Shown here: positions 43,821 to 56,411 of the stretch, in pieces | Layout of the letters: each line of letters starts with the position of its first letter | Position numbering within the stretch: position 1 is the stretch's first letter | Source: Pseudorhodobacter aquimaris | Lineage (GTDB): Bacteria; Pseudomonadota; Alphaproteobacteria; Rhodobacterales; Rhodobacteraceae | Length of the DNA stretch: 64,000 nucleotides | Direction of reading: 5' to 3' | Assembly: GCF_001202025.1 (NCBI RefSeq) | Contig: NZ_LGHS01000046.1 | Coordinates: 62,001-126,000 of the forward strand | The notes under the pieces: generated by a model | Told to the model about the DNA's origin: nothing | Databases searched by the model: none | What the model saw: only the letters and a program-made list of their open reading frames with translations | Program-made: the position numbers and the translations under genes

Positions 43821-44237
43821 TCAGTGGTCCTTGTCACAAAGACCGTGGTCGGCCAAAGAGGCAAGCACATAGCAATTTTCCAGCGCGCCATCCCCGCTAC
43901 AGCCTTTGGTAATCCGGGCAAGCTCTTTTTCCAGTGTCTTCAGCCGTTTGATCTTTTCGCGCACATGGGCAAGTTGCAAGGATGCGATTTGATTGGCGGC
44001 CTCACATGATCTGTCGGGATGCTCTTGTAGCTCGATCAGGGACAGGATCGCCTCTATCGAGAACCCCAGATCGCGGGCATGCCGGATAAAGCTCAGCCGT
44101 TCCAGACCAGCCTTGTCGTATCGCCGCTGGTTCCCCGCTGTGCGCTGGGCCTGCGTCATCAGCCCCATATCCTCATAGTAGCGGATCGTTGGCACCTTGA
44201 CCTTGGTGCGTTTTGAAAGCGCGCCGATGGAATACAC
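43821..44237 (-). CDS. MerR-family metal-responsive regulator (ZntR-like)
   Basis: 138 residues. The N-terminal MerR helix-turn-helix is intact (V-P-T-I-R-Y-Y-E-D-M-G-L). Metal-type cysteines are present: one in D-R-S-C-E-A-A at the position of ZntR Cys79, and a pair in C-S-G-D-G-A-L-E-N-C. CueR has Ser rather than Cys at the first position, so a divalent metal (Zn, Cd, Pb) is favoured over copper. The MerR-type promoter of the P-type ATPase at 54162 is a likely target. Confidence 0.82.
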   Translation of the reverse strand: MYSIGALSKRTKVKVPTIRYYEDMGLMTQAQRTAGNQRRYDKAGLERLSFIRHARDLGFSIEAILSLIELQEHPDRSCEAANQIASLQLAHVREKIKRLKTLEKELARITKGCSGDGALENCYVLASLADHGLCDKDH

Positions 44238-44409: not shown

Positions 44410-44868
44410 ATGATTTCCATCGCGACAGAAAGCCCCACGGGCAAGGATCTGGCATTGTTGATGTCCCGTCACACGGCGGATATGCATGCGGATACCCCTC
44501 CTGAGAGCAATCACATGATGGATGCCGACCAGCTCGCGGTGCCCGAGGTGTCCTTTTTCGTGATGCGTGACACGGGCGTTCCGGTCGGTATGGGGGCCTT
44601 CAAGCGGATTGACAGTACCCATGCCGAGATAAAATCAATGCATATTCTGGCCGAAGCCCGCGGTCGTGGCCTGTCCAAACGCATGCTGTCGCATTTGGTG
44701 GATGAAGCGCGGGCAAGCGGTTTTCGCAGGCTTAGCCTTGAAACCGGCATCCAGCCTACCTTTGTCGCCGCACGCGCCCTATATGAAAAGGCGGGCTTTG
44801 ACCTGTGCCCCCCGTTTGGGGGTTATCGCGAAGACCCCAACAGCGTTTTTCTGACGCTTATGCTTTGA
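44410..44868 (+). CDS. GNAT-family N-acetyltransferase
   Basis: 152 residues with the acetyl-CoA motif A-E-A-R-G-R-G-L-S-K-R-M-L and the closing Y-E-K-A-G-F. It resembles the PhnO/YsnE small-molecule group. No operon partner is evident. Confidence 0.82.
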   Translation: MISIATESPTGKDLALLMSRHTADMHADTPPESNHMMDADQLAVPEVSFFVMRDTGVPVGMGAFKRIDSTHAEIKSMHILAEARGRGLSKRMLSHLVDEARASGFRRLSLETGIQPTFVAARALYEKAGFDLCPPFGGYREDPNSVFLTLML

Positions 44869-45130
44869 TACATCAAAATTGAGGGTTTGTCTGCCTGCAC
44901 CAAATTCAGGCTTGCCCACTCGCGTCCTGAAAAACTGTTACGCCTATGTTTCAGGGTTTAAGCAGGCCGCGACAGCGTTTGATTATTATGCGCATTTTTT
45001 TGCCATAGTTTCCTCGCAAATGTGCAATAATTTCCTATTACCCTATCTCTTGCGGGAAACGGAACAATCTTATCGAATCGTGCCGGTTGCGGCGATGAAC
45101 TAGAAACCATGGACTTGTCAGGTAAAAAAT
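44869..45130. other. Likely promoter region of the Dlt-like operon
   Basis: 262 bases without a supported coding frame. They precede the first gene of the 45-54 kb operon. Confidence 0.4.
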
Positions 45131-46144
45131 ATGGTTATGAATATGAATGGCGATTTCCAATTTGAGCGCCTTACCTTTGCCGACACGCCACAAATTGCGG
45201 AGTTGCTTAATAGGGCTTGGCCAACATTATATGGTGCAACTGGCTGTCCTGTTTTTACGCATGACTATTTGAACTGGCTTTATGGTGGGCCGCAAAGCGA
45301 TCAACACATGATTCTCGGAGTGCGCCGCGAAGGGGAATTGATCGCCCTGAAGGCCGCACTTTATCGTAAATTGTCCGATGGCACCGAAACATATTCTGCC
45401 CACATCGCGACCCATCTTACAATCGAGCCCGCTTTGGACCTTGGCACCCGTTTGGCCCTGGCGTCGATGCTGGCGCAAAATCATACGCTTGGACGGGAAA
45501 ATGAGTTCGATATTCTCAGTGACCTCTCGATTGCATTTTTCGAAAAAGATAAGGGCCTGTCGCGGAGCACGAAAAAACTGGCTGCTGCGCAATCCATTGT
45601 TGTGGACCAGCTAGAGTTTCGGCAGGCAATCGTGAACGCGCATAAGGCCAGAACGCTTGCGCAATCGGTTGAGGGGGTGGTGGTACGCCCGGCTCAAAAA
45701 TCGGATATGGATGGGGTGCAAGGCTTGCTGCGTGACATGGGCGCCTCACTCTTTCTTGCGCCCTCCCCGGAAGCGGCATGGCATCATTTTTCAAATGCGC
45801 CGGACGCCGTTTGTCTGGTCGCAGAACGGGATTCGCAAATGGTGGGATTTATCTCAACCTATGTTCTGGACTGGATCAAGGAGGGTCAGGTTTCACGCAA
45901 TGTTATTGCCGAGGTTATTTTGGGGAAGGAGCCGGACGAGCTGGCAATGCTTTTGGCCCATGCGCTGACAGCCGCGCAATATGCGGGCGCGCGCGGGATT
46001 GTACTGGACAATATCAATTACATAGATGATACGGTTGCTCGAAAGGCCGGCCTGACTTTGATCCCCAAAGAAATGACTATGGCCATCCGATCTGTTTCGC
46101 AGATGAGTTGTGTGAAGGGTTCTTTTCTGATTGACGTAAAGTAG
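45131..46144 (+). CDS. Double-GNAT-like acyltransferase, first gene of Dlt-like operon
   Basis: 337 residues. Two acetyltransferase-like halves are suggested: residues 10-130, and a second from V-V-V-R-P-A-Q-K-S-D-M-D-G-V (about 190) to the end. The second half has the A-A-Q-Y-A-G-A-R-G-I-V-L and T-V-A-R-K-A-G-L pattern of GNAT C-termini. The first half lacks a clear Q/R-x-x-G-x-G/A motif and may be inactive. GNAT-like genes are also known beside carrier/ligase sets in exosortase loci. The gene starts the operon and is followed by a small frame six bases later. Confidence 0.6.
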   Translation: MVMNMNGDFQFERLTFADTPQIAELLNRAWPTLYGATGCPVFTHDYLNWLYGGPQSDQHMILGVRREGELIALKAALYRKLSDGTETYSAHIATHLTIEPALDLGTRLALASMLAQNHTLGRENEFDILSDLSIAFFEKDKGLSRSTKKLAAAQSIVVDQLEFRQAIVNAHKARTLAQSVEGVVVRPAQKSDMDGVQGLLRDMGASLFLAPSPEAAWHHFSNAPDAVCLVAERDSQMVGFISTYVLDWIKEGQVSRNVIAEVILGKEPDELAMLLAHALTAAQYAGARGIVLDNINYIDDTVARKAGLTLIPKEMTMAIRSVSQMSCVKGSFLIDVK

Positions 46145-46150
46145 TTGGTT

Positions 46151-46345
46151 ATGCTGGATCGCGGAAAAGCTGATAGAAATAGAATTTCCTTTACAGATGT
46201 GACGCTTTTGGCTGCCGCAGCTTTCGCTTACTTTTGCCGAAGCTTTGTAAAGACTGCCAGTCGGGCATTTGCCGTTGATAATAATATGTTTTTCTGGCGC
46301 GCGATGGCGACCCGGTCTGTTGGTTTTAGTGGGGTGCGAATGTGA
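46151..46345 (+). CDS. Possible 64-residue linker protein
   Basis: A small frame with an ATG at 46151 whose TGA overlaps the GTG start of the SGNH gene. It has one hydrophobic run (V-T-L-L-A-A-A-A-F-A-Y-F). No family is recognised. The overlap and the tight 6-base gap before it favour a real gene, but the ribosome site is weak. Confidence 0.35.
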   Translation: MLDRGKADRNRISFTDVTLLAAAAFAYFCRSFVKTASRAFAVDNNMFFWRAMATRSVGFSGVRM

Positions 46346-47484
46346 AGTCCGACAATCAACCCCCACCGATTTCTGGCACCGGCACCAATAGATTCCGCGC
46401 CGGTGCCACTGCGTTCTGGTCAGGATTTATTGAACTGTCCCGTGCAGCATTCGTGTCGATGATTGTTACGGCCTCGCTAGTGCTTGCGGCGGTGGTCTGG
46501 CTTTTTTCGCCTTCGGGTTTGACGGGCCCGTTGGGGGATTATGCGGCGCGCTCGGCACGGGATGCGGCAGCCTTTGCGACGGTCGAGGTGTTGCGCCTTG
46601 CACATAGTGAGCAGGAGCACCCGCGGTTGCTGTTGCTTGGCACCTCAACGATCGCACAGGCATTTGGCGACCCGCAGGCGCTTGAAAAACATCTCGACGG
46701 CAGCCCCTTTGCGGCGGATTGGGATGTTCACATGCTAGCGACGCCCTTGCAGACCAGGCTGGACCAACTCACCCTGATCGAGAACGCGGTTCGCAACCGC
46801 AGGCCGGACGATCCGCCCTTGGTGATTGCCATTGGTGTCGGGATTCACCGGCTGGCCACAAATGAGTCCAGATTGATAGAGCTGGAGCAGATGGGCCGTC
46901 TTGGTGTCCGGTCGGATTGGGCGGATGAGGCGATGCTGCAAATGGGCGCTTCGCCGCGGCCACGGTCAGGTCTTTCTGTTGTCGAGAACTTCAATTTCGT
47001 GGTGCAGCAAACGCCAGTGACCCTTGCGAGGATGGCGGTGTTGCGACCGGCCAGATGTAACTTTGCCAGCTACGCATCGGGGCCGGCGGTGCCTGTCGAG
47101 GCCCGCAACCGCGATGCTGCAAAGGCATGGATCGAGGCGGGCTATGCGGCACCGGATTATACGGAGTTTCTCGATGCGCTGTACGGGCGTTTGTCCGGCA
47201 TGCCGAACGTGCATCTTGTACTGTTCGACGAAAGGCTCTCTCCTGCTTTTATTTCGGAATACGGGTTTGCGGGGCTGAGCGATGAAATTTATGCGCGTTT
47301 TGCCGATCACGCGTCACGGAATGGTTCGGTCTTTATCCCGGCGATGAAGAATGCCGCACTGGGGACCGAGGATTATCATGACGACTATCACATCAAAATT
47401 GGCGTTCCTCAAGAACGGGTCAGGGCCGCCTTTGCAACGCAATTCATTAAGTTTGCAGAAGAAATTGATGGCGTGGTGAAATGA
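46342..47484 (+). CDS. Membrane-anchored SGNH/DltD-like protein
   Basis: 380 residues from a GTG. A transmembrane helix near residues 38-55 puts the rest in the periplasm. The domain begins L-L-L-L-G-T-S-T-I-A (block-I-like, Ser in G-T-S) and ends with D-Y-H-D-D-Y-H-I-K, which holds the D-x-x-H of SGNH hydrolases. DltD has the same topology and acts with the MBOAT DltB. Its stop overlaps the microprotein start at 47481 (ATGA). The domain is too diverged for a firm family name. Confidence 0.65.
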   Translation: MKSDNQPPPISGTGTNRFRAGATAFWSGFIELSRAAFVSMIVTASLVLAAVVWLFSPSGLTGPLGDYAARSARDAAAFATVEVLRLAHSEQEHPRLLLLGTSTIAQAFGDPQALEKHLDGSPFAADWDVHMLATPLQTRLDQLTLIENAVRNRRPDDPPLVIAIGVGIHRLATNESRLIELEQMGRLGVRSDWADEAMLQMGASPRPRSGLSVVENFNFVVQQTPVTLARMAVLRPARCNFASYASGPAVPVEARNRDAAKAWIEAGYAAPDYTEFLDALYGRLSGMPNVHLVLFDERLSPAFISEYGFAGLSDEIYARFADHASRNGSVFIPAMKNAALGTEDYHDDYHIKIGVPQERVRAAFATQFIKFAEEIDGVVK

Positions 47485-47630
47485 GCGGAACCTTGGAGAA
47501 ACCTTCGAAAATGCGTACGACCGGCAGGGTGACGCGTGGGGTGCTGATCGGGCTGTTCCTCGTGCCCGCCTGCTGTGGGCTGATTGCAATTCTCGGCAAT
47601 ATTTCGGCCTTTGCCTATCAGGGGTATTGA
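47481..47630 (+). CDS. DltX-like 49-residue membrane microprotein
   Basis: The frame starts in the ATGA overlap with the DltD-like gene and ends 27 bases before the MBOAT gene. It has a basic N-terminus, one transmembrane helix (residues 20-40) and a C-terminus I-S-A-F-A-Y-Q-G-Y. That ending recalls the conserved F-x-Y-x-x-F tail of DltX, which is also a microprotein of about 50 residues encoded beside dltA/dltB and needed for acyl transfer. Its position next to the MBOAT supports the comparison. Confidence 0.6.
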   Translation: MSGTLEKPSKMRTTGRVTRGVLIGLFLVPACCGLIAILGNISAFAYQGY

Positions 47631-47657
47631 TTATGTACAGCAGGTTGAGACGGTAAC

Positions 47658-48857
47658 ATGATTCAATATGAAATATGGTGGCTCTACCTTATTGCCGCTC
47701 CGACGATTTACTGGCTCATTCCTGCCGCCTACCGGGCATGGTTTTTAAGCGCCATTAGCCTTGTTTTGCTGGCATATTTTGCAAAGCTCGATTTGGTTTT
47801 GATGTGCGGCCTTGCGCTTGTCGTGTTTTACGGGCGCGGGCTGGATGAAAAGCGTTGGCCGGAATGGGCCGTCAGGGCGGGCAAATCAACCGCGCTGGCT
47901 TGGTTGGTTTTTATCTATTTCATTGTTTCCAAATACATTCCAACAATTGCTAAAATGGTTGCCGGGCAGGCGAGCTTTATCGATTTTGCAGTGCCGTTGG
48001 GGGTAAGTTACTTCAGCTTCAAGCTATTGCATTATGCGATTGAAAACCGGCGCGGGAACCTGCCGGCGCATGGGTTGGATGATTTTATCTCTTGGTTGTT
48101 CCTCGCCCCGATTTTCACTGCCGGGCCGATCGAGCGTTTTGATCATTTCCTGCATAATCGCGAAGTTGTGACATTTAAATTCAAGTTTATTCGCGAAGGG
48201 GTTGAGCGAATAGCCGTTGGTCTGGTCAAGAAATATATGCTTGGCATGCTGGTTTTGGAAGCGATGCAGCAAATGGGCAGCCCAAGCATTTTCGCGATGG
48301 CAAGGCACCTGGACGACTTTAGCGTTTTGCAGATCTGGGGGCTGTTGTTTCTGTCCTTCCTTTACCTGTATCTGGATTTTTCGGCATATTCGGATATTGC
48401 AATCGGGTCGTCGCGGTTGTTCGGCCTAAGAATTATGGAGAACTTCAACCTCCCGTTCCTTGCAACATCACTGCCGGATTTTTGGCAACGCTGGCATATG
48501 ACTTTGGCACAATGGGTGCGAACCTATATCTATATGTCGATTATCGGGTTGACGCGAAACCCTTATTGGGCGGTCATTATCTCATTTACCATGATGGGGC
48601 TGTGGCATGCCGCGTCGCCGCATTGGGCTGCTTGGGGTATGTGGCATGGTGTGGGGCTTGCCATATTTGTAATGTGGCACAGATATGCAACCCGCCATAA
48701 GGTTCGGTTTTTTAAAACACGGATTGGTGGAATTTCAGCCCGTATTTTGACACTTTCCTATGTTTCTTTGGGCGGTGCGTTTACCGGGCTATACCAGCAT
48801 GGCTCTATTTGGGATTCCTTTAGAATTATGCTGCATGCCTTTGGTATTCGTGTCTGA
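47658..48857 (+). CDS. MBOAT-family O-acyltransferase (DltB/AlgI-like)
   Basis: 399 residues with about ten to eleven membrane helices. The MBOAT landmarks are all present: F-W-Q-R-W-H-M-T-L-A-Q-W, M-M-G-L-W-H-A-A with the catalytic His, and W-G-M-W-H-G. MBOATs move acyl groups across or onto the far face of the membrane; DltB takes D-alanine from DltC, and AlgI takes acetyl for alginate. With a carrier protein and ligase in the same operon, a DltB-like role is favoured here. Confidence 0.88.
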   Translation: MIQYEIWWLYLIAAPTIYWLIPAAYRAWFLSAISLVLLAYFAKLDLVLMCGLALVVFYGRGLDEKRWPEWAVRAGKSTALAWLVFIYFIVSKYIPTIAKMVAGQASFIDFAVPLGVSYFSFKLLHYAIENRRGNLPAHGLDDFISWLFLAPIFTAGPIERFDHFLHNREVVTFKFKFIREGVERIAVGLVKKYMLGMLVLEAMQQMGSPSIFAMARHLDDFSVLQIWGLLFLSFLYLYLDFSAYSDIAIGSSRLFGLRIMENFNLPFLATSLPDFWQRWHMTLAQWVRTYIYMSIIGLTRNPYWAVIISFTMMGLWHAASPHWAAWGMWHGVGLAIFVMWHRYATRHKVRFFKTRIGGISARILTLSYVSLGGAFTGLYQHGSIWDSFRIMLHAFGIRV

Positions 48858-48870
48858 CAGGAATATGAGG

Positions 48871-48889
48871 GCCGGTTCACAAAACCGGC
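48871..48889. other. Hairpin downstream of the MBOAT gene
   Basis: GCCGGTT-CACAA-AACCGGC is a perfect 7-5-7 inverted repeat 14 bases after the MBOAT stop. It lacks a T-run and may slow transcription into the second half of the operon. Confidence 0.4.
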
Positions 48890-48926
48890 GCAAGATAACG
48901 ATGATGATACAAAGCTATATTCTGAA

Positions 48927-48955
48927 TTGACACTGTCTCGTTCCTGGGGTGCTAA
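48927..48955 (+). promoter_or_regulatory. Possible internal promoter
   Basis: TTGACA (48927-48932) and TGCTAA (48950-48955) with 17 bases between them resemble a sigma-70-type promoter, 35 bases before the carrier-protein gene. Confidence 0.3.
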
Positions 48956-48990
48956 CAAGGCACCGAGTTTCAAAACTATGTGAGGTAAGT

Positions 48991-49233
48991 ATGATTGACG
49001 AAACATCCCTTAAGGCCTTCTTGGAGGATGAACTTGGGGCCGACCTTGCCGAGGTCGAAAATGACAGCCTTTTGTTCAGCACCGGCATTATTGACAGTTT
49101 TGCCTTGGTGAACATGATGATGTTCTTGGAAACCGAAGGCGGGTTCCGGATCAGCCCGGCTGACGTAAACCTTGAAAACCTCGATAGTATCGACCGTATT
49201 CTTGCCTTTGTAAAAAGAAGCAAAGAGGGATGA
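48991..49233 (+). CDS. Acyl/aminoacyl carrier protein (DltC-like)
   Basis: 80 residues, acidic and helical. The phosphopantetheine site is the Ser of G-I-I-D-S-F-A-L-V, with the expected Asp before it. The protein would hold the activated acyl or aminoacyl group as a thioester. I took the ATG at 48991 with a GAGGTAAG ribosome site. The stop overlaps the decarboxylase start (ATGA). Confidence 0.85.
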   Translation: MIDETSLKAFLEDELGADLAEVENDSLLFSTGIIDSFALVNMMMFLETEGGFRISPADVNLENLDSIDRILAFVKRSKEG

Positions 49234-50483
49234 CGGAACATCTTCTCAAGGCGGCAAACACTTTTGGAACGCCAGCATACCTCTATGATCTTGACGCAAT
49301 TTGTCAGCGCATAGAGGTGTTGCGTGATCTGTTCGATGGGCGCTTTGGCATCAGCTATGCCATCAAGGCAAATCCCAACCCGGCCCTTCTGGCTGCAATC
49401 AAACCTTTGCTCAGCACCTTTGACGCATCCTCGATTGCCGAGGTGCACCGTGCGCTTGATGCGGGCATGGATGCCGACCGGATCACTTTTTCGGGCCCCG
49501 CAAAACGGCTGCCCGAAATCACTGGCGCGATTGATGTCGGCGTGGGTGAACTGGTCATCGAAAACCTGCATGAAGCGCGGCAGGCCAGCGATTATGCGAC
49601 ACGGATGGGGGTGGAACAAACCATCCTTGTCCGGCTCAATCCGTTGGAGGTTCCGCGCAAATTCGGAGCCTCGATGGGGGGCACGTCAAGCCAGTTCGGG
49701 ATCGACGAAGAGAGCATGGAAGTGGATCTTCCCGCCCTGCAATCACTGCCGGGATTGAAGCTGGTCGGGTTCCATATCTATTCCGGCACCAATTGCCTGA
49801 ACTCTGAGGCCATTGCTGAAAATTTCGGGCTTTTTGCCGCGATCTTCCGCAAGGCACAAAAGATCACCGGGATCAGCCCCGAACGGCTGGTGTTCGGTTC
49901 CGGTTTCGGGGTGCCCTATCTGCCCGGTGAGGCAGAGCTGGATCACGCAGCATTGCCTGCCCTGATCAACCCGATCATCGACGATCTGCTGGCCGAGCCG
50001 GCCTTTGCAAATGCCTCATGCAATCTGGAACTGGGGCGCTGGCTTGTCGGGCTCTGCGGCTGGTTGTTGACGACGGTGGTTTCGCAAAAAACCTCTCGGG
50101 GTCGTGAAATCCGGATGTGCGACGCCGGTTTCAACAATCATCTGGCGGCTTGCGGGATGATGGGGTCGGTTTTGCGGCGCAATTGGATTTATGAGAATAT
50201 CAGCAACAAGACGGGTACGACCGCACCCTATACGCTGGTCGGCCCGCTTTGCACCACAATCGACAGGTTGGCACTGGATGTGGAACTTGCCGAAGTACGG
50301 GTCGGTGATGTGATCGCGGTCGCCTCTTCTGGTGCCTATGGGCTGACAGCGTCACCCTCGCAGTTCATCTCACATCCCTATCCCAGCGAGGTGGTCATCC
50401 AAAACGGCGAGATGCGCGAAGCGACAGAGCCGTTGCGCTATCACTCCTTTGACCGCAGCAACCCAAGGGGGGCAGAGCGATGA
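49230..50483 (+). CDS. Fold-type III PLP-dependent decarboxylase
   Basis: 417 residues with the alanine-racemase-type N-terminal barrel: A-Y-L-Y-D-L-D and the PLP-lysine in Y-A-I-K-A-N-P-N-P near residue 47. The substrate-binding Cys-Asp region is C-D-A-G-F-N-N-H, and the C-terminal S-S-G-A-Y-G follows. It belongs to the group containing diaminopimelate and ornithine decarboxylases and the decarboxylase linked to exosortase systems. Its amino-acid substrate is unknown. It may make an amine or a modified amino acid for the ligase/carrier pair. Confidence 0.82.
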   Translation: MTEHLLKAANTFGTPAYLYDLDAICQRIEVLRDLFDGRFGISYAIKANPNPALLAAIKPLLSTFDASSIAEVHRALDAGMDADRITFSGPAKRLPEITGAIDVGVGELVIENLHEARQASDYATRMGVEQTILVRLNPLEVPRKFGASMGGTSSQFGIDEESMEVDLPALQSLPGLKLVGFHIYSGTNCLNSEAIAENFGLFAAIFRKAQKITGISPERLVFGSGFGVPYLPGEAELDHAALPALINPIIDDLLAEPAFANASCNLELGRWLVGLCGWLLTTVVSQKTSRGREIRMCDAGFNNHLAACGMMGSVLRRNWIYENISNKTGTTAPYTLVGPLCTTIDRLALDVELAEVRVGDVIAVASSGAYGLTASPSQFISHPYPSEVVIQNGEMREATEPLRYHSFDRSNPRGAER

Positions 50484-51397
50484 AAAGCAAAAATACGCGC
50501 TATGTTGTCCTTGGCTTTCCACGCTCTGGGACAACGCTTCTGGCCCGGCTTTTGAACGGGCATCCCGATGTTTCCTGTCCGCCGGAGACTTTCTCCTTTG
50601 CTGCGGCGGGCAAATTTCTGTCGGAGCAAACCCGTGTCGAAGGGCCACATATCGGGGTTCTTTCGGGTTTGGGCATGTTGGGGTTTGCCGCCGAGGAGGT
50701 CATGGCCCCTTTGCGGGATACGGTCTTCGGGTTTCAAGAAAAGCTCGCAGGCGAACGCCCTATCTGGGTCGAGAAAACCGCGACGAACATCTTTCATATC
50801 GAAACGTTGGAGCCCTTTCTGGCGGGCCATGTCCGCTACATTTATATTGTGCGCAATCCGCTTGACGTTGTGGCTTCAAACATGGATCTGGCCAGCAACA
50901 TGGGGGCGCAGCTGTCGGATCTTCATGCCTTGACGCAAGGGTCTGATATTTCTCAAGAAGGCCTGATGCGCGCGTGGATTGACCGCACCAAGGTGCTGGA
51001 TGAATTTGCAGGCCGCCACGGCGCGGATTGCCATTATCTGCGCTATGAGGATCTGACCGAGAATCCGGCAGAATCCTTGGGTGCGATCATGAAATTTATG
51101 GGCGTCGAGGCGGATATAGAGCAGCAGATTTCAGCCGCATTTTCGCAAACTGGCCGGATTGGCCTTGGTGATTTTCGTATTGATGAAACGACGAGTATCC
51201 GAACGCCCAAAAAGGATGGCTGGCGCAAACGTCTGCCGCGTACAATGGCATCGCGGATTATCCCTCTGGCAGCTGAGCTGATGGAAAAACACGGCTATGC
51301 GGTGCCAAAGGTTCCGAAGTTGCCAGATCGTGAGACCGCCATACGGCAGTTTTTGATGGCGGCAGAGTTAAAGCGCAATTCGGCGAAAAACAACTAG
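50480..51397 (+). CDS. PAPS-dependent sulfotransferase
   Basis: 305 residues. The 5'-phosphosulfate loop is G-F-P-R-S-G-T-T-L-L at residue 12, and the 3'-phosphate site is V-R-N-P-L-D-V-V-A-S near residue 130, the two motifs of the Sulfotransfer family. It overlaps the decarboxylase by four bases. It may sulfate a small precursor or an envelope glycan. PAPS-synthesis genes are not in the window. Confidence 0.85.
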   Translation: MKSKNTRYVVLGFPRSGTTLLARLLNGHPDVSCPPETFSFAAAGKFLSEQTRVEGPHIGVLSGLGMLGFAAEEVMAPLRDTVFGFQEKLAGERPIWVEKTATNIFHIETLEPFLAGHVRYIYIVRNPLDVVASNMDLASNMGAQLSDLHALTQGSDISQEGLMRAWIDRTKVLDEFAGRHGADCHYLRYEDLTENPAESLGAIMKFMGVEADIEQQISAAFSQTGRIGLGDFRIDETTSIRTPKKDGWRKRLPRTMASRIIPLAAELMEKHGYAVPKVPKLPDRETAIRQFLMAAELKRNSAKNN

Positions 51398-51405
51398 GGC
51401 ACATT

Positions 51406-52893
51406 ATGTCATTCCAAGCCTGGCTTACCTTTCAAAACATTGTACGGGCCGCACCGACACAGCCTGCGGTCTTGCACGGCGCTTCGACCTATAGCTTTGC
51501 TGAGTTGGAAGAGCTGGCGCTTTGCTGGGCTGCGACCTTGAATGCAAAACCGGGCGAGCGGGTTCTTTTATATGCCGAAAATACGGCAACGACAGCTGCG
51601 GCTGTTTTGGGGATCTGGCGCTTGGGGGCGGTGCCGGTCTGGATCAATTCGGCAGCACCGCTAGACCATGTAAGGCTGGCCTTGGAAGAGACGAGCGCGG
51701 TTGCAATTGTCGCTTCAGCCCTAGAGGATTCGGGATTGTCTTGCCCGGTCTACCGCGCGCCCGAGTCTGGTGGGGCGCTGGAACTGCCCCAACCTGAAGG
51801 GGATGGCAGCAGTCTCGGCTCGATCGTTTATACGTCCGGCTCTACCGGGCGGCCCAAGGGGGTGGTCCAAAAGGCCGAAACGCTGATCGACGGGGCGCGG
51901 CGGGTTGCCGATACGTTTGGCTACCGCGCGCAGGACCGCATTCTTTGCCCGGTTCCTTTCGCGTTCGATTATGGCTGGGGACAGCTGTTGTCGATGCTGT
52001 TAACCGGTGTCACTCTGGTGCTGCCCGAACCGCAGAATGCTTTTGGCCTTTGCGACGCGATCACGCGACATCGCCCGACAGTCTTTGCGGGCGTGCCTGC
52101 GGTTTTTGCAAATCTGCTTAGCGGACTGTCCCCCATCCGCGAAACGGATTGCAGCTCGGTTCGGCTGATCACCAATACGGGCTCCCGCTTGCCCGAAACC
52201 GTACAAGAGCAACTTTGGCAGACCTTCCCAACGGCCGCGCTGTCGCTGAACTATGGTTTGACCGAGACCTACCGTTCTGCATCCCTGCCGGTGGCATTAG
52301 CCAAGGCAAAGCCCCATTCAGTCGGCCCCGCCTTTCCGGGGGCACAGATCATTATTCTTGATGAGGACGGGGTGCCATGCCCCCCCAATGTCACCGGCGA
52401 GATCATCCATCGGGGCGCGGGGATATTTGAGCGGTATTGGAATGATCCCGAACGCACCGCCTTGGTGCGCAGGCCCGATCCGCTGGATCCCGGCTCTGGT
52501 CGGGTGGCGGTATATACCGGTGATCTTGGTCATCTGGATGAGGAGGGGCATCTGGTCATCACAGGACGTCGGGACCGTCAGATGAAGTCGATGGGGGTGC
52601 GCGTTTCACCTGATGAGGTCGAAGATATTCTGGCCGCCACCGGTTTGATGGCGGAGGTGGCAATCACCTCACGGCGCGATGACACCATCGGGGATATGAT
52701 CGTTGCATTTGTCGTCGGCCACCCGAACGCTGATCATAAGGCCGACCTTAAGGCGCTGAAACAAAAGGCACGTGATTGCCTTAGCCCCTATATGATGCCA
52801 CGATTGTTTTTTCTTCTGGATGCCTTGCCCCGAAATCCGAATAAAAAGGTTGATTATGTTTCCCTTAAAAAACGTGCAGCCGCAGAAATATGA
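51406..52893 (+). CDS. AMP-forming acyl/aminoacyl ligase (DltA-like)
   Basis: 495 residues with the adenylation core motifs Y-T-S-G-S-T-G-R-P-K-G-V near residue 145, N-Y-G-L-T-E-T-Y (A5), Y-T-G-D-L-G (A7), G-R-R-D-R-Q-M-K-S-M-G-V-R-V (A8) and the catalytic Lys in N-P-N-K-K-V-D-Y. It activates a carboxylic or amino acid as its adenylate and loads the carrier. The closest family memory is the ligase of exosortase-associated loci and DltA; the pocket residues do not tell me the substrate. Confidence 0.85.
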   Translation: MSFQAWLTFQNIVRAAPTQPAVLHGASTYSFAELEELALCWAATLNAKPGERVLLYAENTATTAAAVLGIWRLGAVPVWINSAAPLDHVRLALEETSAVAIVASALEDSGLSCPVYRAPESGGALELPQPEGDGSSLGSIVYTSGSTGRPKGVVQKAETLIDGARRVADTFGYRAQDRILCPVPFAFDYGWGQLLSMLLTGVTLVLPEPQNAFGLCDAITRHRPTVFAGVPAVFANLLSGLSPIRETDCSSVRLITNTGSRLPETVQEQLWQTFPTAALSLNYGLTETYRSASLPVALAKAKPHSVGPAFPGAQIIILDEDGVPCPPNVTGEIIHRGAGIFERYWNDPERTALVRRPDPLDPGSGRVAVYTGDLGHLDEEGHLVITGRRDRQMKSMGVRVSPDEVEDILAATGLMAEVAITSRRDDTIGDMIVAFVVGHPNADHKADLKALKQKARDCLSPYMMPRLFFLLDALPRNPNKKVDYVSLKKRAAAEI

Positions 52894-52974
52894 CGCGGGG
52901 CGATGTTAATATGTGCACAGGGCGTCGATAGCTTCGATGTTGGCGAACCCTTATTATTTTATAGGAGGGGTTTT

Positions 52975-54116
52975 ATGACACGTGACCCAGAACCATTTAT
53001 TGCCGCAGCACGCAATCTGTCCGAAAGCTGCGGCGTAAAACCAGAAAACGGGCAGGAACGGAAGTTTACAGACGCGCTTTTGGCGCAAATGCGCGTGGAT
53101 AATTTGTTATCGGTTGCAATGTCGCCGCAATATGGCGGGCCAGGCTTGGCGCTTGCCGATATAGCGCGGATCACCTTTGAAATCGGAAAGCAAGACGGAT
53201 CTGCTGGCTTGATATATGCGATGCACAGCAGCCAGGCCCTATGCGTCGCGCATCATGGTAGGGGCGCATATTTCAACGTACTTTGCGCCAGAATTGTGGA
53301 TGATGAGCTGTTGATCGCCTCGGGTACCTCGGAAAAGGGCCGGGCGGTGATATTCTGAACTCGCTTTGTTCAGTGGACGGGCCTGCCGATGGGCCAAAGA
53401 CAATCACCAAATCCAGCCCCAATATTTCTTATATCAATCATGCCGACCTGATTCTGGTCACCGCCAATGGCACAGATACGTCAGGTCGCAAAAGACAGCG
53501 TCTTGTTGCCGCAAAGGTGGACAGGGATGCCTTCATCTCTGCCCATGAGACCAAAATGCTGGGCATGCGCGGTATTTTGAATGCGCCTTGGGATTTCACG
53601 GTGCGCTTTGGCAATGAGGCGATTTTCGATGAGGATTTTGCCGTGATTGCACGGTCGACCATGACGCCGGCAATTCAAATCCTCTGGGCGGCGCTTTGGT
53701 CAGGCATTGCAGATCATGCCCTTGGCAAAGCACGCAATTTTATCGCCACACAGTTAAAGCCCGATGATGAGGCCACGCAGTTCGCACGTCATGACCTAAC
53801 GCGGCTGATTAGCAAACACCAGATGATGAACGCCCTGATTTCCGAGGCACTTCGGGGTTATGAAAAAGGGGGGCAGGCTGTGGGCTTTACCCAATCGGCG
53901 CGCATTAACCGGCTTAAGGTGACGTGTTCCGAGCTGTTGATCACAATATGCCAGGGTGCTTTGCAGATCATCGGGCTACGAGGCTATGTGATGGGGGGCC
54001 CATTCACGGTGGCACAGCCTTTGGCCGATGCATTGTCCGGCCCGATAATGGTCTCTAATTACCGGTTGTCATTGAATACGATGAAGGTTGAAAACTATGT
54101 CAGTGAGGGGATTTAG
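52975..54116 (+). pseudogene. Acyl-CoA dehydrogenase, single-base frameshift
   Basis: A strong ribosome site (AGGAGGGG) precedes the ATG at 52975. Two frames together form an acyl-CoA dehydrogenase of about 380 residues. The N-terminal part ends in the wrong frame after S-G-T-S-E-K-G; the C-terminal part begins G-G-D-I-L-N-S-L-C and runs to Y-V-S-E-G-I. One base is missing near 53340-53345. The expected catalytic Glu region is not clear by eye. Homologues oxidise carrier-bound prolyl groups in pyrrole pathways; here a similar oxidation of the carrier-bound substrate is conceivable. Confidence 0.78.
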
Positions 54117-54156: not shown

Positions 54157-54187
54157 TTGAACCTCTAGTTCCTAGAGGCGTTAGGCA
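54157..54187 (+). promoter_or_regulatory. MerR-type promoter of the P-type ATPase gene
   Basis: TTGAAC (54157-54162) and TAGGCA (54182-54187) are separated by 19 bases. The spacer contains the perfect palindrome CCTCTAG-TTC-CTAGAGG (54162-54178). An overlong spacer with a central palindrome is the signature of MerR-family activated metal promoters. The ATPase start lies 44 bases further on. Confidence 0.75.
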
Positions 54188-54230: not shown

Positions 54231-56411
54231 ATGGCCAAACCCATGCTTGAACAGACCCCGACGCGGCGCGAATGGACAGTTACCGGCATGGATTGTGGGT
54301 CATGTGCCAGCAAGATCAGGAATGCCGTGGGACGGCTGGCGGGCGTTTCTGATATCAACGTGGCCTTGATGACCGAACGGTTGAGCCTGTCACTGGACGC
54401 GGCACAGACGTCGCCTGCCAAGGTCGAAGAGGTGGTTACATCGCTTGGCTATGGGATTGTGGCCAAAGGCGCGGCACCGACGCACAACGCCCAGCAGGAA
54501 AACCAAGACCATTCCCAAAGGCATCAGCGCTGGTATCAAACGGCCAAGGGCCGCTTGGCAACCGTTACGGGAACCCTCTTATGTCTGGCGTGGGGCGTTG
54601 ATTTGCTGACCTCTTCACAAATTGGTCATTGGGCCTTTGTCGTCGCCTGTTTGATCGGGGTGACACCGGTGGCCATCCGTGCCTATGCCGCATTGCGGCT
54701 TGGTCAGCCCTTTACCATCGAAGGTTTGATGACGATTGCGGCACTTGGCGCCTTGTTCATCAATGAGGCTGAAGAGGCGGCGCTGGTTGTGTTCCTTTTT
54801 GCCGTGGGCGAGATGCTGGAAGGTGTCGCTGCCAGCAAGGCCCGCAATGGTATTCGCGCGCTGGCAGACCTTGTCCCTAAAACCGCCTTGTTAGAGGAAG
54901 ACGGGGCAACAAGCGAGGTGCCCGCCGCGCGTTTGGCCGTGGGGCAGGTCATAGTCGTGCGACCGGGTGATCGAATTCCGGCGGATGGCAATATCGTATC
55001 GGGCACCAGCGGGGTGGATGAAAGCCCCGTGACGGGCGAAAGCGTGCCGCGCAGCAAAGGGCCGGGCGACGCTGTTTTTGCAGGCTCTATCAATACCGAG
55101 GCTGTTTTGCGGGTCGCGGTGACCAAAGCCGCGCAAGACAACACGATCTCTCGTATCATCCAACTGGTCGAAGAGGCCGAGGATGCCCGCGCCCCGACCG
55201 AACGTTTCATCGACCGCTTCAGCCGGTGGTATATGCCCGCGATCGTGGGGCTTGCGGCCTTGGTCATCGTGCTGCCACCCCTTGTATTCGGTCAGCTTTG
55301 GGAGACGTGGATCTATCGCGGCCTCGCCCTTCTCTTGATCGGTTGCCCTTGCGCGTTGGTCATTTCGGTGCCCGCTTCGATCGCTTCGGCCTTGTCGGCG
55401 GGTGCGCGTCGCGGGTTGTTGATGAAGGGCGGAGCGGTGATTGAGGCGGCAGCAAAGACGACCCATGTTGCCTTTGACAAGACAGGCACCCTGACCTCTG
55501 GCCGTCCGGTGGTGACGGATGTGGTTGTCTTGGGCGATTTGGACGAACGCAAGGTTCTATCGCTTGCCGCTGCCGTAGAGGCCGGCTCCAGTCATCCCCT
55601 TGCCGCTGCCATCCGCGCGCAGGCGGCGGATACCCCCGTGATGACGGCAACGGAATCGCGACTGATCCCCGGTCGGGGCGTAGAGGCGGTGGTCGATGGC
55701 ATTAAAACCTGGGTCACCAATCCAAAATACGCGGCAGAGCATGGTGGTCTGGATGCAGTTGGATCAATGCGGGCAACGGCCCTCGAACAAGAGGGCAAGA
55801 CCGTTGCCGTATTGTACCGCGCCGACAGCCCCCTCGCCCTGTTCGCGCTGCGTGATGAGCCACGCAAGGACGCAGCAGACGCCATGCGTCAGTTGCGGGC
55901 CATGGGGATCACGCCGATTATTCTGACAGGCGACAATCCCCGCACAGCCGCCGCTATTGCGGGCGGTCTGGGTATCGCGTTTCAGGCAGAAATGATGCCC
56001 GAAACCAAATTGGCGGCGATCAAGGCCATGGGTCAATCGGGTCATGTGATGATGGTCGGAGACGGCATCAACGATGCACCAGCGCTTAAACAGGCCAGCG
56101 TCGGGGTGGCAATGGGGTCAGGCACCGACGTGGCGTTGGAAACGGCCGACGCGGCCATCTTGCGCGATCGCGTCACTGATGTACCTGCGCAAATTCGGCT
56201 GGCGCGGGGGGCGATGGCCAATATCCGTCAGAACGTCATATTGGCATTGGGGTTGAAGGCGGTGTTCCTTGTTACATCGGTTCTGGGGATTACGGGGCTT
56301 TGGATTGCCATCATGGCCGATACCGGCGCGACTGTTCTGGTGACGCTGAACGCTTTGCGCCTGTTGCGTTTGGACCCGACCCGAGAGGCCAACGACCGGA
56401 TCAGCCCTTAA
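54231..56411 (+). CDS. zntA: Zn/Cd/Pb-translocating P-type ATPase (ZntA-like)
   Basis: 726 residues: an N-terminal heavy-metal domain (G-M-D-C-G-S-C near residue 20), a T-G-E-S phosphatase loop, the membrane C-P-C in I-G-C-P-C-A-L-V, the phosphorylated D-K-T-G-T, and G-D-G-I-N-D-A-P. The last helix has A-D-T-G-A-T-V-L-V-T-L-N, the Asp of the zinc-type P1B-2 group, rather than copper-type residues. It exports divalent heavy metals from the cytoplasm. Its 3' end overlaps the converging acetyltransferase by 11 bases. Confidence 0.92.
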   Translation: MAKPMLEQTPTRREWTVTGMDCGSCASKIRNAVGRLAGVSDINVALMTERLSLSLDAAQTSPAKVEEVVTSLGYGIVAKGAAPTHNAQQENQDHSQRHQRWYQTAKGRLATVTGTLLCLAWGVDLLTSSQIGHWAFVVACLIGVTPVAIRAYAALRLGQPFTIEGLMTIAALGALFINEAEEAALVVFLFAVGEMLEGVAASKARNGIRALADLVPKTALLEEDGATSEVPAARLAVGQVIVVRPGDRIPADGNIVSGTSGVDESPVTGESVPRSKGPGDAVFAGSINTEAVLRVAVTKAAQDNTISRIIQLVEEAEDARAPTERFIDRFSRWYMPAIVGLAALVIVLPPLVFGQLWETWIYRGLALLLIGCPCALVISVPASIASALSAGARRGLLMKGGAVIEAAAKTTHVAFDKTGTLTSGRPVVTDVVVLGDLDERKVLSLAAAVEAGSSHPLAAAIRAQAADTPVMTATESRLIPGRGVEAVVDGIKTWVTNPKYAAEHGGLDAVGSMRATALEQEGKTVAVLYRADSPLALFALRDEPRKDAADAMRQLRAMGITPIILTGDNPRTAAAIAGGLGIAFQAEMMPETKLAAIKAMGQSGHVMMVGDGINDAPALKQASVGVAMGSGTDVALETADAAILRDRVTDVPAQIRLARGAMANIRQNVILALGLKAVFLVTSVLGITGLWIAIMADTGATVLVTLNALRLLRLDPTREANDRISP

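Follow-up and report, generated by a model that had tools for sequence, protein, structure and literature searches.

A stretch of 64,000 nucleotides from Pseudorhodobacter aquimaris (hereafter the window; contig NZ_LGHS01000046.1, positions 62,001 to 126,000, with all coordinates below in window numbering) contained a group of forward-strand genes that appeared to encode a two-part envelope-acylation system, in which an acyl group would be synthesized on an acyl carrier protein (ACP) and then handed to a Dlt-like transfer relay. We put the probability of this reading at about 0.6. Sequence comparison showed the gene set, its recurrence in other genomes, the families to which the products are related, and the conservation of their predicted catalytic residues.

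In the proposed mechanism, an AMP-forming ligase would activate an amino acid and load it onto the ACP; acidic substrates such as glutamate or aspartate are the most likely. On the ACP, a BtrK-type decarboxylase would strip the alpha-carboxyl group to give an omega-amino-acyl-ACP resembling gamma-aminobutyrate (GABA). The sulfotransferase, using 3'-phosphoadenosine-5'-phosphosulfate (PAPS), would probably sulfate the ACP-bound acyl group, and a flavoenzyme resembling acyl-CoA dehydrogenases (ACAD), where intact, would oxidize it. The MBOAT would then move the acyl group from the ACP to Tyr46 of a microprotein, which would shuttle it to Ser102 of an SGNH protein, and the SGNH protein would esterify an acceptor in the envelope beyond the inner membrane, probably a glycan. 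We infer which amino acid is used, in what order it is tailored, that sulfate goes onto the acyl group and not onto the acceptor, and what the acceptor is. The Dlt-like architecture of the relay appears highly probable and the formation of a decarboxylated amino-acyl-ACP fairly probable, while sulfation of the acyl group itself is a possibility with the odds slightly against it. That the genes represent a distinct Gram-negative envelope-acylation family, in which a sulfated omega-amino-acyl group (zwitterionic or anionic) is built on a carrier and exported by a Dlt-type Tyr/Ser relay, is a tentative proposal, and a doubtful one in its full form.

A probable Dlt-like relay with a separate microprotein

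In the Dlt pathway, as outlined in part of one article, DltB transfers D-Ala from its carrier to the invariant Tyr in the FXYXXF motif of DltX, and DltX passes it to a Ser of DltD (PMC12148441). A previous interpretation made from the letters alone (the sequence-only reading) had proposed counterparts of the ligase, carrier, MBOAT, SGNH protein and microprotein in the window, and all five were recovered. The DltB-type MBOAT (47658-48857, 399 aa) matched the Pfam MBOAT family at 2.8e-20 and, in a profile search (A1), the solved DltB structures 8jem (E 5.9e-36) and 6bug (E 1.2e-35); its His280 and His317 were invariant in all six loci compared. The DltX-like microprotein (47481-47630, 49 aa) had one hydrophobic stretch, and its gene overlapped the SGNH gene by 4 bp (ATGA). 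Its C-terminus, FAYQGY, followed the FXYXXF shuttle pattern except for the final residue, Y for F, and the five other microproteins of the clade described below ended in FKYQGF, FRYQVF, FRYAGF, FRYQNF and FRYQGF. Tyr46 is the predicted acyl carrier.

The SGNH/DltD-like membrane-anchored transferase (46342-47484, 380 aa from a GTG start) was recognized through conserved residues together with a fold match. An SGNH protein lacking any catalytic Ser/His geometry, along with a microprotein that was not conserved, had been named beforehand as an outcome that would count against the relay; in 6/6 loci, F44 and Y46 were invariant in the microprotein, as were the predicted catalytic Ser102 (GTS), Asp347 and His350 in the SGNH protein. 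No Pfam family matched the SGNH protein, and a sequence search of the PDB with its alignment (A2) returned no match up to E 1. With a weak AlphaFold2 model (predicted local distance difference test score, pLDDT, 50.8), VIA-align recovered GDSL/SGNH hydrolases at up to Z 11.2, designed scaffolds at 11.0-12.3, and DltD (6o93) at Z 10.0 over 209 residues. The Foldseek ranking, in which every match had E >1e-3, was headed mostly by GDSL/SGNH hydrolases, with DltD 6o93 ninth.

The likeness to Dlt extended to the ligase, the carrier, the MBOAT, an FXYXX(F/Y) microprotein and a membrane-anchored SGNH-type protein with Ser, Asp and His; the window differed in adding a decarboxylase, a sulfotransferase and an ACAD-like enzyme, while D-Ala and teichoic acid belong to Dlt. 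A second comparison was offered by Gram-negative MBOATs such as PatA, which, in the accessible portion of the same source, themselves end in the shuttle motif and draw on an acyl-CoA donor (PMC12148441). The window resembled PatA/PatB in pairing an MBOAT with an SGNH protein and in the acyl-Tyr relay motif, as that portion describes it (PMC12148441), and departed from PatAB/AlgIJ-type pairs in placing the motif on a separate microprotein and in having a carrier protein.

This distinction was followed in a census of 108 loci that was not a random sample, comprising the window, 99 loci found by MBOAT similarity (L002-L100) and eight chosen by hand; a microprotein was counted if its gene was on the same strand and no more than 4 kb away, with open reading frames (ORFs) of up to 130 aa allowed in the strict census. 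Eighty of the 108 MBOATs had a C-terminal motif of their own, and a strict-motif microprotein was near none of them. The other 28 did not have the motif, and 16 of these had a strict-motif microprotein nearby, namely the six of the window clade, five dlt loci of Gram-positive bacteria and five further loci. The window MBOAT and the five other MBOATs of its clade were without a C-terminal motif. The microprotein of locus L147 entered the census as a 117-aa ORF owing to an upstream start, and a strict-motif ORF of L122, on the opposite strand, was left out of the count. A version of the census with a looser motif, run on 99 loci that did not include the window and on ORFs of up to 90 aa, found a C-terminal motif in 79 MBOATs and none in 20; three loose microprotein matches lay by own-motif MBOATs (L068, L078 and L084), all of which failed the strict motif.

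A maximum-likelihood tree of the 108 MBOATs, made by a quick search with Shimodaira-Hasegawa-like approximate likelihood-ratio (SH-aLRT) support only, containing some long branches and not including Dickeya-type DltB, placed the six MBOATs of window-type loci in one clade (SH-aLRT 98); the five Gram-positive DltBs (SH-aLRT 100) and the 80 MBOATs with their own motif (99) stood apart from it.

Separate shuttle microproteins were also seen beside MBOATs in L022 (Lacunisphaera), L026 (Melainabacteria), L035, L040 (Eremiobacterota) and L120 (genome G245), the first four of which had an SGNH-like neighbor as well, by a loose pattern. No match to the window ligase or decarboxylase was found near any of the five, and DltX-type microproteins seem to be more widely spread than the Dlt pathway.

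Proposed synthesis and tailoring of the acyl group

The AMP-forming ligase (51406-52893, 495 aa; AMP-binding 6.1e-70) had nonribosomal peptide synthetase (NRPS) adenylation domains as its best PDB matches, with D-Ala ligases lower down. It contained the motifs FDYGWGQ and YGLTETYRS, and its Asp188 and Arg290 were invariant in 5/5 aligned ligases. In adenylation domains such an Asp holds the amino group of the substrate, and the Arg in the pocket region of the ligase suggests an acidic substrate. The patterns FD(Y/F)G and YGLTE..RS were both present in the window, in genomes G747, G155 and G286, and in Thioploca; a decarboxylase was seen in four of these five loci, the G155 contig being truncated. 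G657, in which no decarboxylase was seen, gave no match to the second pattern. The G657 locus (L146, 6261-9011) has a more distant ligase, 25% identical to that of the window, and its version of the system probably loads the same relay with another acyl group.

The ACP (48991-49233, 80 aa; Pfam PP-binding 1.5e-4) had its predicted phosphopantetheine serine in a DSF motif that was kept in all five ACPs examined from clade loci. The adjoining gene encoded the decarboxylase (49230-50483, 417 aa), which, like the sulfotransferase, had been assigned in the sequence-only reading, there as a fold-III pyridoxal-5'-phosphate (PLP) enzyme, and both assignments were borne out by Pfam (Orn_Arg_deC_N 1.4e-27 for the decarboxylase). 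Its predicted PLP Lys lay within AIKANPN, and it read GPLCTTID where the LysA of the same genome reads GPICESGD; at that site four decarboxylases of clade loci read GPLC(T/S).ID. A single-sequence search favored BtrK (2j66/7ru7; E 4e-54) over the best diaminopimelate decarboxylase (DAPDC; 1.8e-42), as did a five-sequence profile (6e-95 vs 1.5e-65). By these comparisons a BtrK-type enzyme, rather than DAPDC, is the nearest solved relative, with the PLP lysine motif and without the LysA-type GPxCES. The window protein was 43-66% identical to the relatives compared and remote from BtrK itself. A role as DAPDC in lysine synthesis was dropped, as a LysA above its cut-off sits elsewhere in the genome.

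BtrK is reported, in the part of the source available, to decarboxylate glutamate on the small carrier BtrI to gamma-aminobutyryl-BtrI (PMC7857480). The window shares with this butirosin system its nearest solved decarboxylase and an adjoining small ACP gene; the product there goes to an antibiotic, whereas the neighbors in the window are a transfer relay. The best NCBIfam models for the ligase and decarboxylase were TIGR03098 (336.9 bits, cut-off 592.35) and TIGR03099 (323.5 bits, cut-off 478.45), and both scores fell below the cut-offs. Unlike the exosortase-A-associated ligase and decarboxylase, the window pair was linked to an MBOAT, an SGNH protein and a microprotein.

Two Paracoccus plasmids (L101 and L102) carried a trio of ligase, ACP and BtrK-type decarboxylase beside GT61 glycosyltransferase and serine-acetyltransferase-like genes, and the L101 trio also adjoined a CE2/GDSL-type SGNH gene. 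No MBOAT was found among the genes in the neighboring gene table, which is incomplete, and the trio is possibly another route for placing the same acyl group.

The sulfotransferase (50480-51397, 305 aa; Sulfotransfer_3 1.2e-24) contained the motifs PRSGTT and R...S, which we take to be PAPS-binding; PRSG(T/S)T, R125 and S133 were retained in 5/5 sulfotransferases, and homologues occurred in G747, G286, G657 and G759. An APS-kinase match over the cut-off was present in the genome. The nearest solved sulfotransferases were 4gox and the CurM sulfotransferase 4gbm, both with the single sequence (4.7e-9 and 1e-6) and by profile (2e-21 and 6e-19). The PDB entry 4gox is titled 'Polyketide synthase' and is presumably the OLS enzyme. 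The OLS and CurM sulfotransferases are described, in the part of the article available, as transferring a sulfonate from PAPS onto beta-hydroxyacyl substrates (PMC3903477). The window enzyme resembles them as its closest solved relatives and in its PAPS-type motifs, and differs in standing alone. Alkene formation is not expected, because no polyketide synthase (PKS) or thioesterase was present among the ten ORFs scanned.

The acyl-CoA dehydrogenase that had been claimed was present by its family matches, and a frameshift had been overlooked: the ACAD-like gene was split over two ORFs in different frames, an N-terminal part at 52903-53358 (Acyl-CoA_dh_N 4.7e-7), whose true start is possibly the ATG at 52975 by alignment, and a C-terminal part at 53373-54116 (Acyl-CoA_dh_1 2.2e-6). 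The frame change, near 53335-53345, ends the N-terminal part early, and the two frames indicate that the gene is frameshifted in this assembly. An intact copy was found in L147 (G747) as a single 379-aa ORF, to which the N- and C-terminal parts were 57% and 51% identical. A PDB sequence search with the L147 protein gave no match up to E 1e-5. At the frame change (53320-53360), the heptamer A AAG GGC is phased as a -1 slippery site, and a -1 slip there would yield the residues found in L147. Five other genes, with 1999 codons in all, contained 10 in-phase XXXYYYZ heptamers, and the heptamer may reflect chance, with a plain deletion or a sequencing error behind the frame change. The G155 gene has a GPGSQK repeat at the corresponding position.

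The genes had been described as one tight operon. From the SGNH gene to the ACAD-like gene the spacings were -4, 27, 133, -4, -4, 8 and 9 bp, in keeping with that description for most of the genes and not for the ACP gene, 5' of which lies the largest gap (133 bp). Promoter-like and terminator-like sites were about as frequent as in shuffled sequence (10 vs 7.5, standard deviation 2.4, and 15 vs 12.7, standard deviation 4.2).

A GNAT-like gene at 45131, 197 bp upstream of the SGNH gene, had also been counted as part of the operon, as a double-GNAT-like protein, and was set aside. Its Acetyltransf_1 match was sub-threshold (E 0.048; 14.4 bits, cut-off 20.7), and it was not seen alongside the set elsewhere: no match was found in loci L021, L118, L146, L147 and L148, nor in 16 genomes including G155 and G286, in a search run without a positive control. 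A PDB sequence search with its protein gave no match up to E 10, and a single-sequence AlphaFold2 model, with a pLDDT of 37.2, was too poor to use. Further out, the operon was flanked by genes named from their translations, namely a MerR-type regulator (43821-44237) and a small GNAT (44410-44868) upstream and a metal-ATPase (54231-56411) downstream. A palindrome, ACCTCTAGTTCCTAGAGGC, lay near 54161, just upstream of the metal-ATPase gene.

Recurrence, rarity and probable loss

Co-occurrence in other genomes had been named as a check on the system, and the gene set was found again in G747, G286 and Thioploca, among others. All eight genes were present in G747 (L147), with ACP, decarboxylase, sulfotransferase, ligase and ACAD on one strand and SGNH, microprotein and MBOAT divergent. 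In G286 (L118), which belongs to the window's phylum and not to its class, the order was ACP-decarboxylase-sulfotransferase-ligase-SGNH-microprotein-MBOAT, and in Thioploca (L021) it was SGNH-microprotein-MBOAT-ligase-GNAT-ACP-decarboxylase. A 4164-bp contig of G155 (L002, L134) held ligase-SGNH-microprotein-MBOAT-ACAD, and G657 (L146) held SGNH-microprotein-MBOAT-ligase-ACP-sulfotransferase. A ligase, a sulfotransferase and an MBOAT were present in G759 (L148), where no strict microprotein was found, and L119, L121 and L122 had parts of the set only. As the gene set recurs in other genomes, it is more than a chance assembly, and the varying gene order with retained partners indicated that the synthesis and transfer sub-modules stay together. 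Among the 99 loci found by similarity, a decarboxylase match at E <=1e-4 occurred in one (Thioploca) and a sulfotransferase match at that threshold in none, many of these loci being about 4 kb long, so that absent neighbors there mean little.

The system is rare and patchy. With a profile of the clade and E <1e-100, the MBOAT was found in one of nine genomes of the genus sample, the window's own, and in none of the eight others; in 2/389 other genomes of the order sample (G657 and G747); and in 1/397 others of the phylum sample (G286). The family sample, queried with the window MBOAT instead at the same threshold, gave 1/197 other genomes (G155), and the samples overlap. Forty-eight genomes of the class of G286 yielded G286 and a weaker match, G242, at 1e-64, which falls outside the clade by its locus (L122). 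Relatives of the operon genes were found in Thioploca and Paracoccus, which fits the Gram-negative, alphaproteobacterial host assumed in the sequence-only reading. An MBOAT match was present in 133 plasmid records, all at <60% identity and at 25-32% in the 30 matches listed, and decarboxylase matches at 46-47% occurred in five Paracoccus plasmid records.

Evidence for loss came from G204, a genome of the same genus, in which the neighboring genes lie in the same order and 49 bp replace window positions 44869-54008. Of the ACAD-like gene, the 3'-terminal 108 bp remain, and the flanks contain two more deletions. This remnant suggests that the ACAD-like gene at least was once present in the lineage and was lost by deletion, as probably was the whole operon.

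Alternative explanations and biological meaning

Several observations weigh against envelope acylation by the proposed mechanism, or against parts of it. No sulfotransferase match was found in the 16-kb locus of Thioploca and no decarboxylase match in 19.5 kb of G657, indicating that the acyl group differs between loci or that these enzymes are non-essential. The ACAD-like gene, frameshifted in the window, was seen only there and in G747 and G155, with no match in L118, L146, L148 and L021. Protein-tyrosine sulfotransferases also matched the sulfotransferase profile, less well (1.3e-15). The model of the SGNH protein was of low confidence, and Foldseek gave no match to it at E<=1e-3. No glycan-synthesis partner adjoining the operon was identified, and the mechanism was drawn from sequence. 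The system works like Dlt and is not a member of it by the NCBIfam cut-offs for DltA, DltB and DltC. The earlier suggestion of a Dlt-like relay carrying a different acyl group gained from the co-occurrence and residue conservation; its acyl group and acceptor are putative.

The same cut-offs bear on one alternative, in which the genes would be a plain Gram-negative dlt operon for the D-alanylation of lipopolysaccharide (LPS), lying beside unrelated genes. Each of the five Dlt functions has a counterpart, and dlt genes are described in Dickeya and Pectobacterium in the accessible part of one report (PMC5541007), yet the MBOAT scored 164.5 bits against TIGR04091 (DltB; cut-off 375), the ligase 147.8 and 154.5 bits against the DltA models TIGR01734 (559.85) and NF003417 (476), and the ACP 28.1 and 16.3 bits against the DltC equivalogs NF003464 (68) and TIGR01688 (52.35). 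With all cut-offs missed, plain D-alanylation was set aside as very improbable; in addition, the ligase scored higher for TIGR03098 than for DltA, the MBOAT clade stood apart from the five Gram-positive DltBs in a tree that holds no Dickeya-type DltB, and the decarboxylase, the sulfotransferase or both recur with the relay. An operon making a diffusible small molecule or lipid, which the MBOAT and SGNH protein would acylate in place of an envelope polymer, is quite improbable. The decarboxylase, the ligase, the sulfotransferase and the ACAD-like enzyme belong to families that typify natural-product clusters, and trios of ACP, ligase and decarboxylase occur in other settings, such as the Paracoccus plasmids; however, none of the ten ORFs scanned with Pfam matched a ketosynthase, condensation domain, thioesterase or exporter, and the transfer genes supply the components of an acyl-Tyr relay of the kind known for envelope polymers.

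Another alternative concerns the placing of the sulfate. The sulfotransferase could act on a cytoplasmic glycan or lipid precursor, with the relay adding a plain omega-amino-acyl group to the sulfated polymer, which would become zwitterionic. NoeE sulfates a glycan, and the window enzyme matched the NCBIfam model of this nodulation protein below threshold (45.2 bits, cut-off 500); Thioploca, moreover, retains the relay and decarboxylase with no sulfotransferase match at the locus. This explanation is rather unlikely, given that 4gox and the CurM sulfotransferase are the closest solved proteins, that in G286, G747 and G657 the gene lies beside one for an ACP, a decarboxylase or a ligase, and that no glycosyltransferase family was matched by any of the ten window ORFs scanned with Pfam. 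It is also unlikely that the system is decaying in this genome and disappearing from the genus, as the frameshift, the presence of the MBOAT in 1/9 genomes of the genus, and G204, without the operon save for the 3' end of the ACAD-like gene, might suggest. The other seven genes are open, the ACAD-like gene may be dispensable because L118, L146 and L021 had no match to it, and a sequencing error or a -1 slip may account for the frame change.

Envelope acylation from a carrier-built acyl group is the reading preferred here, at the strength given above. MBOAT-SGNH pathways, as far as the accessible part of one source covers them, take D-Ala from a carrier (Dlt) or use acyl-CoA with no carrier or microprotein (PatAB and others) (PMC12148441). 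As a Gram-negative Dlt is already in print, the novelty of the window lies in its tailoring set: the Gram-negative setting stressed by the sequence-only reading was known, while the tailoring that it noted recurs, with enzymes whose relatives it had not named and which are identified here as BtrK-type and OLS/CurM-like. No account of this gene combination was found in the open-licence literature, at the level of titles and the beginnings of abstracts, which is no proof of absence.

If the reading is true, a relay that is fed from a carrier and has enzymes to build its own acyl group would show that the Dlt chassis serves more generally to export custom acyl groups, and would give a testable link from the aminoacyl-ACP chemistry known from antibiotics to the control of surface charge. 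It predicts an envelope ester detectable by mass spectrometry. Were the acyl group sulfated as in the tentative proposal above, the charge of the envelope glycan would be changed in the direction opposite to D-alanylation, or in a tunable version of it.

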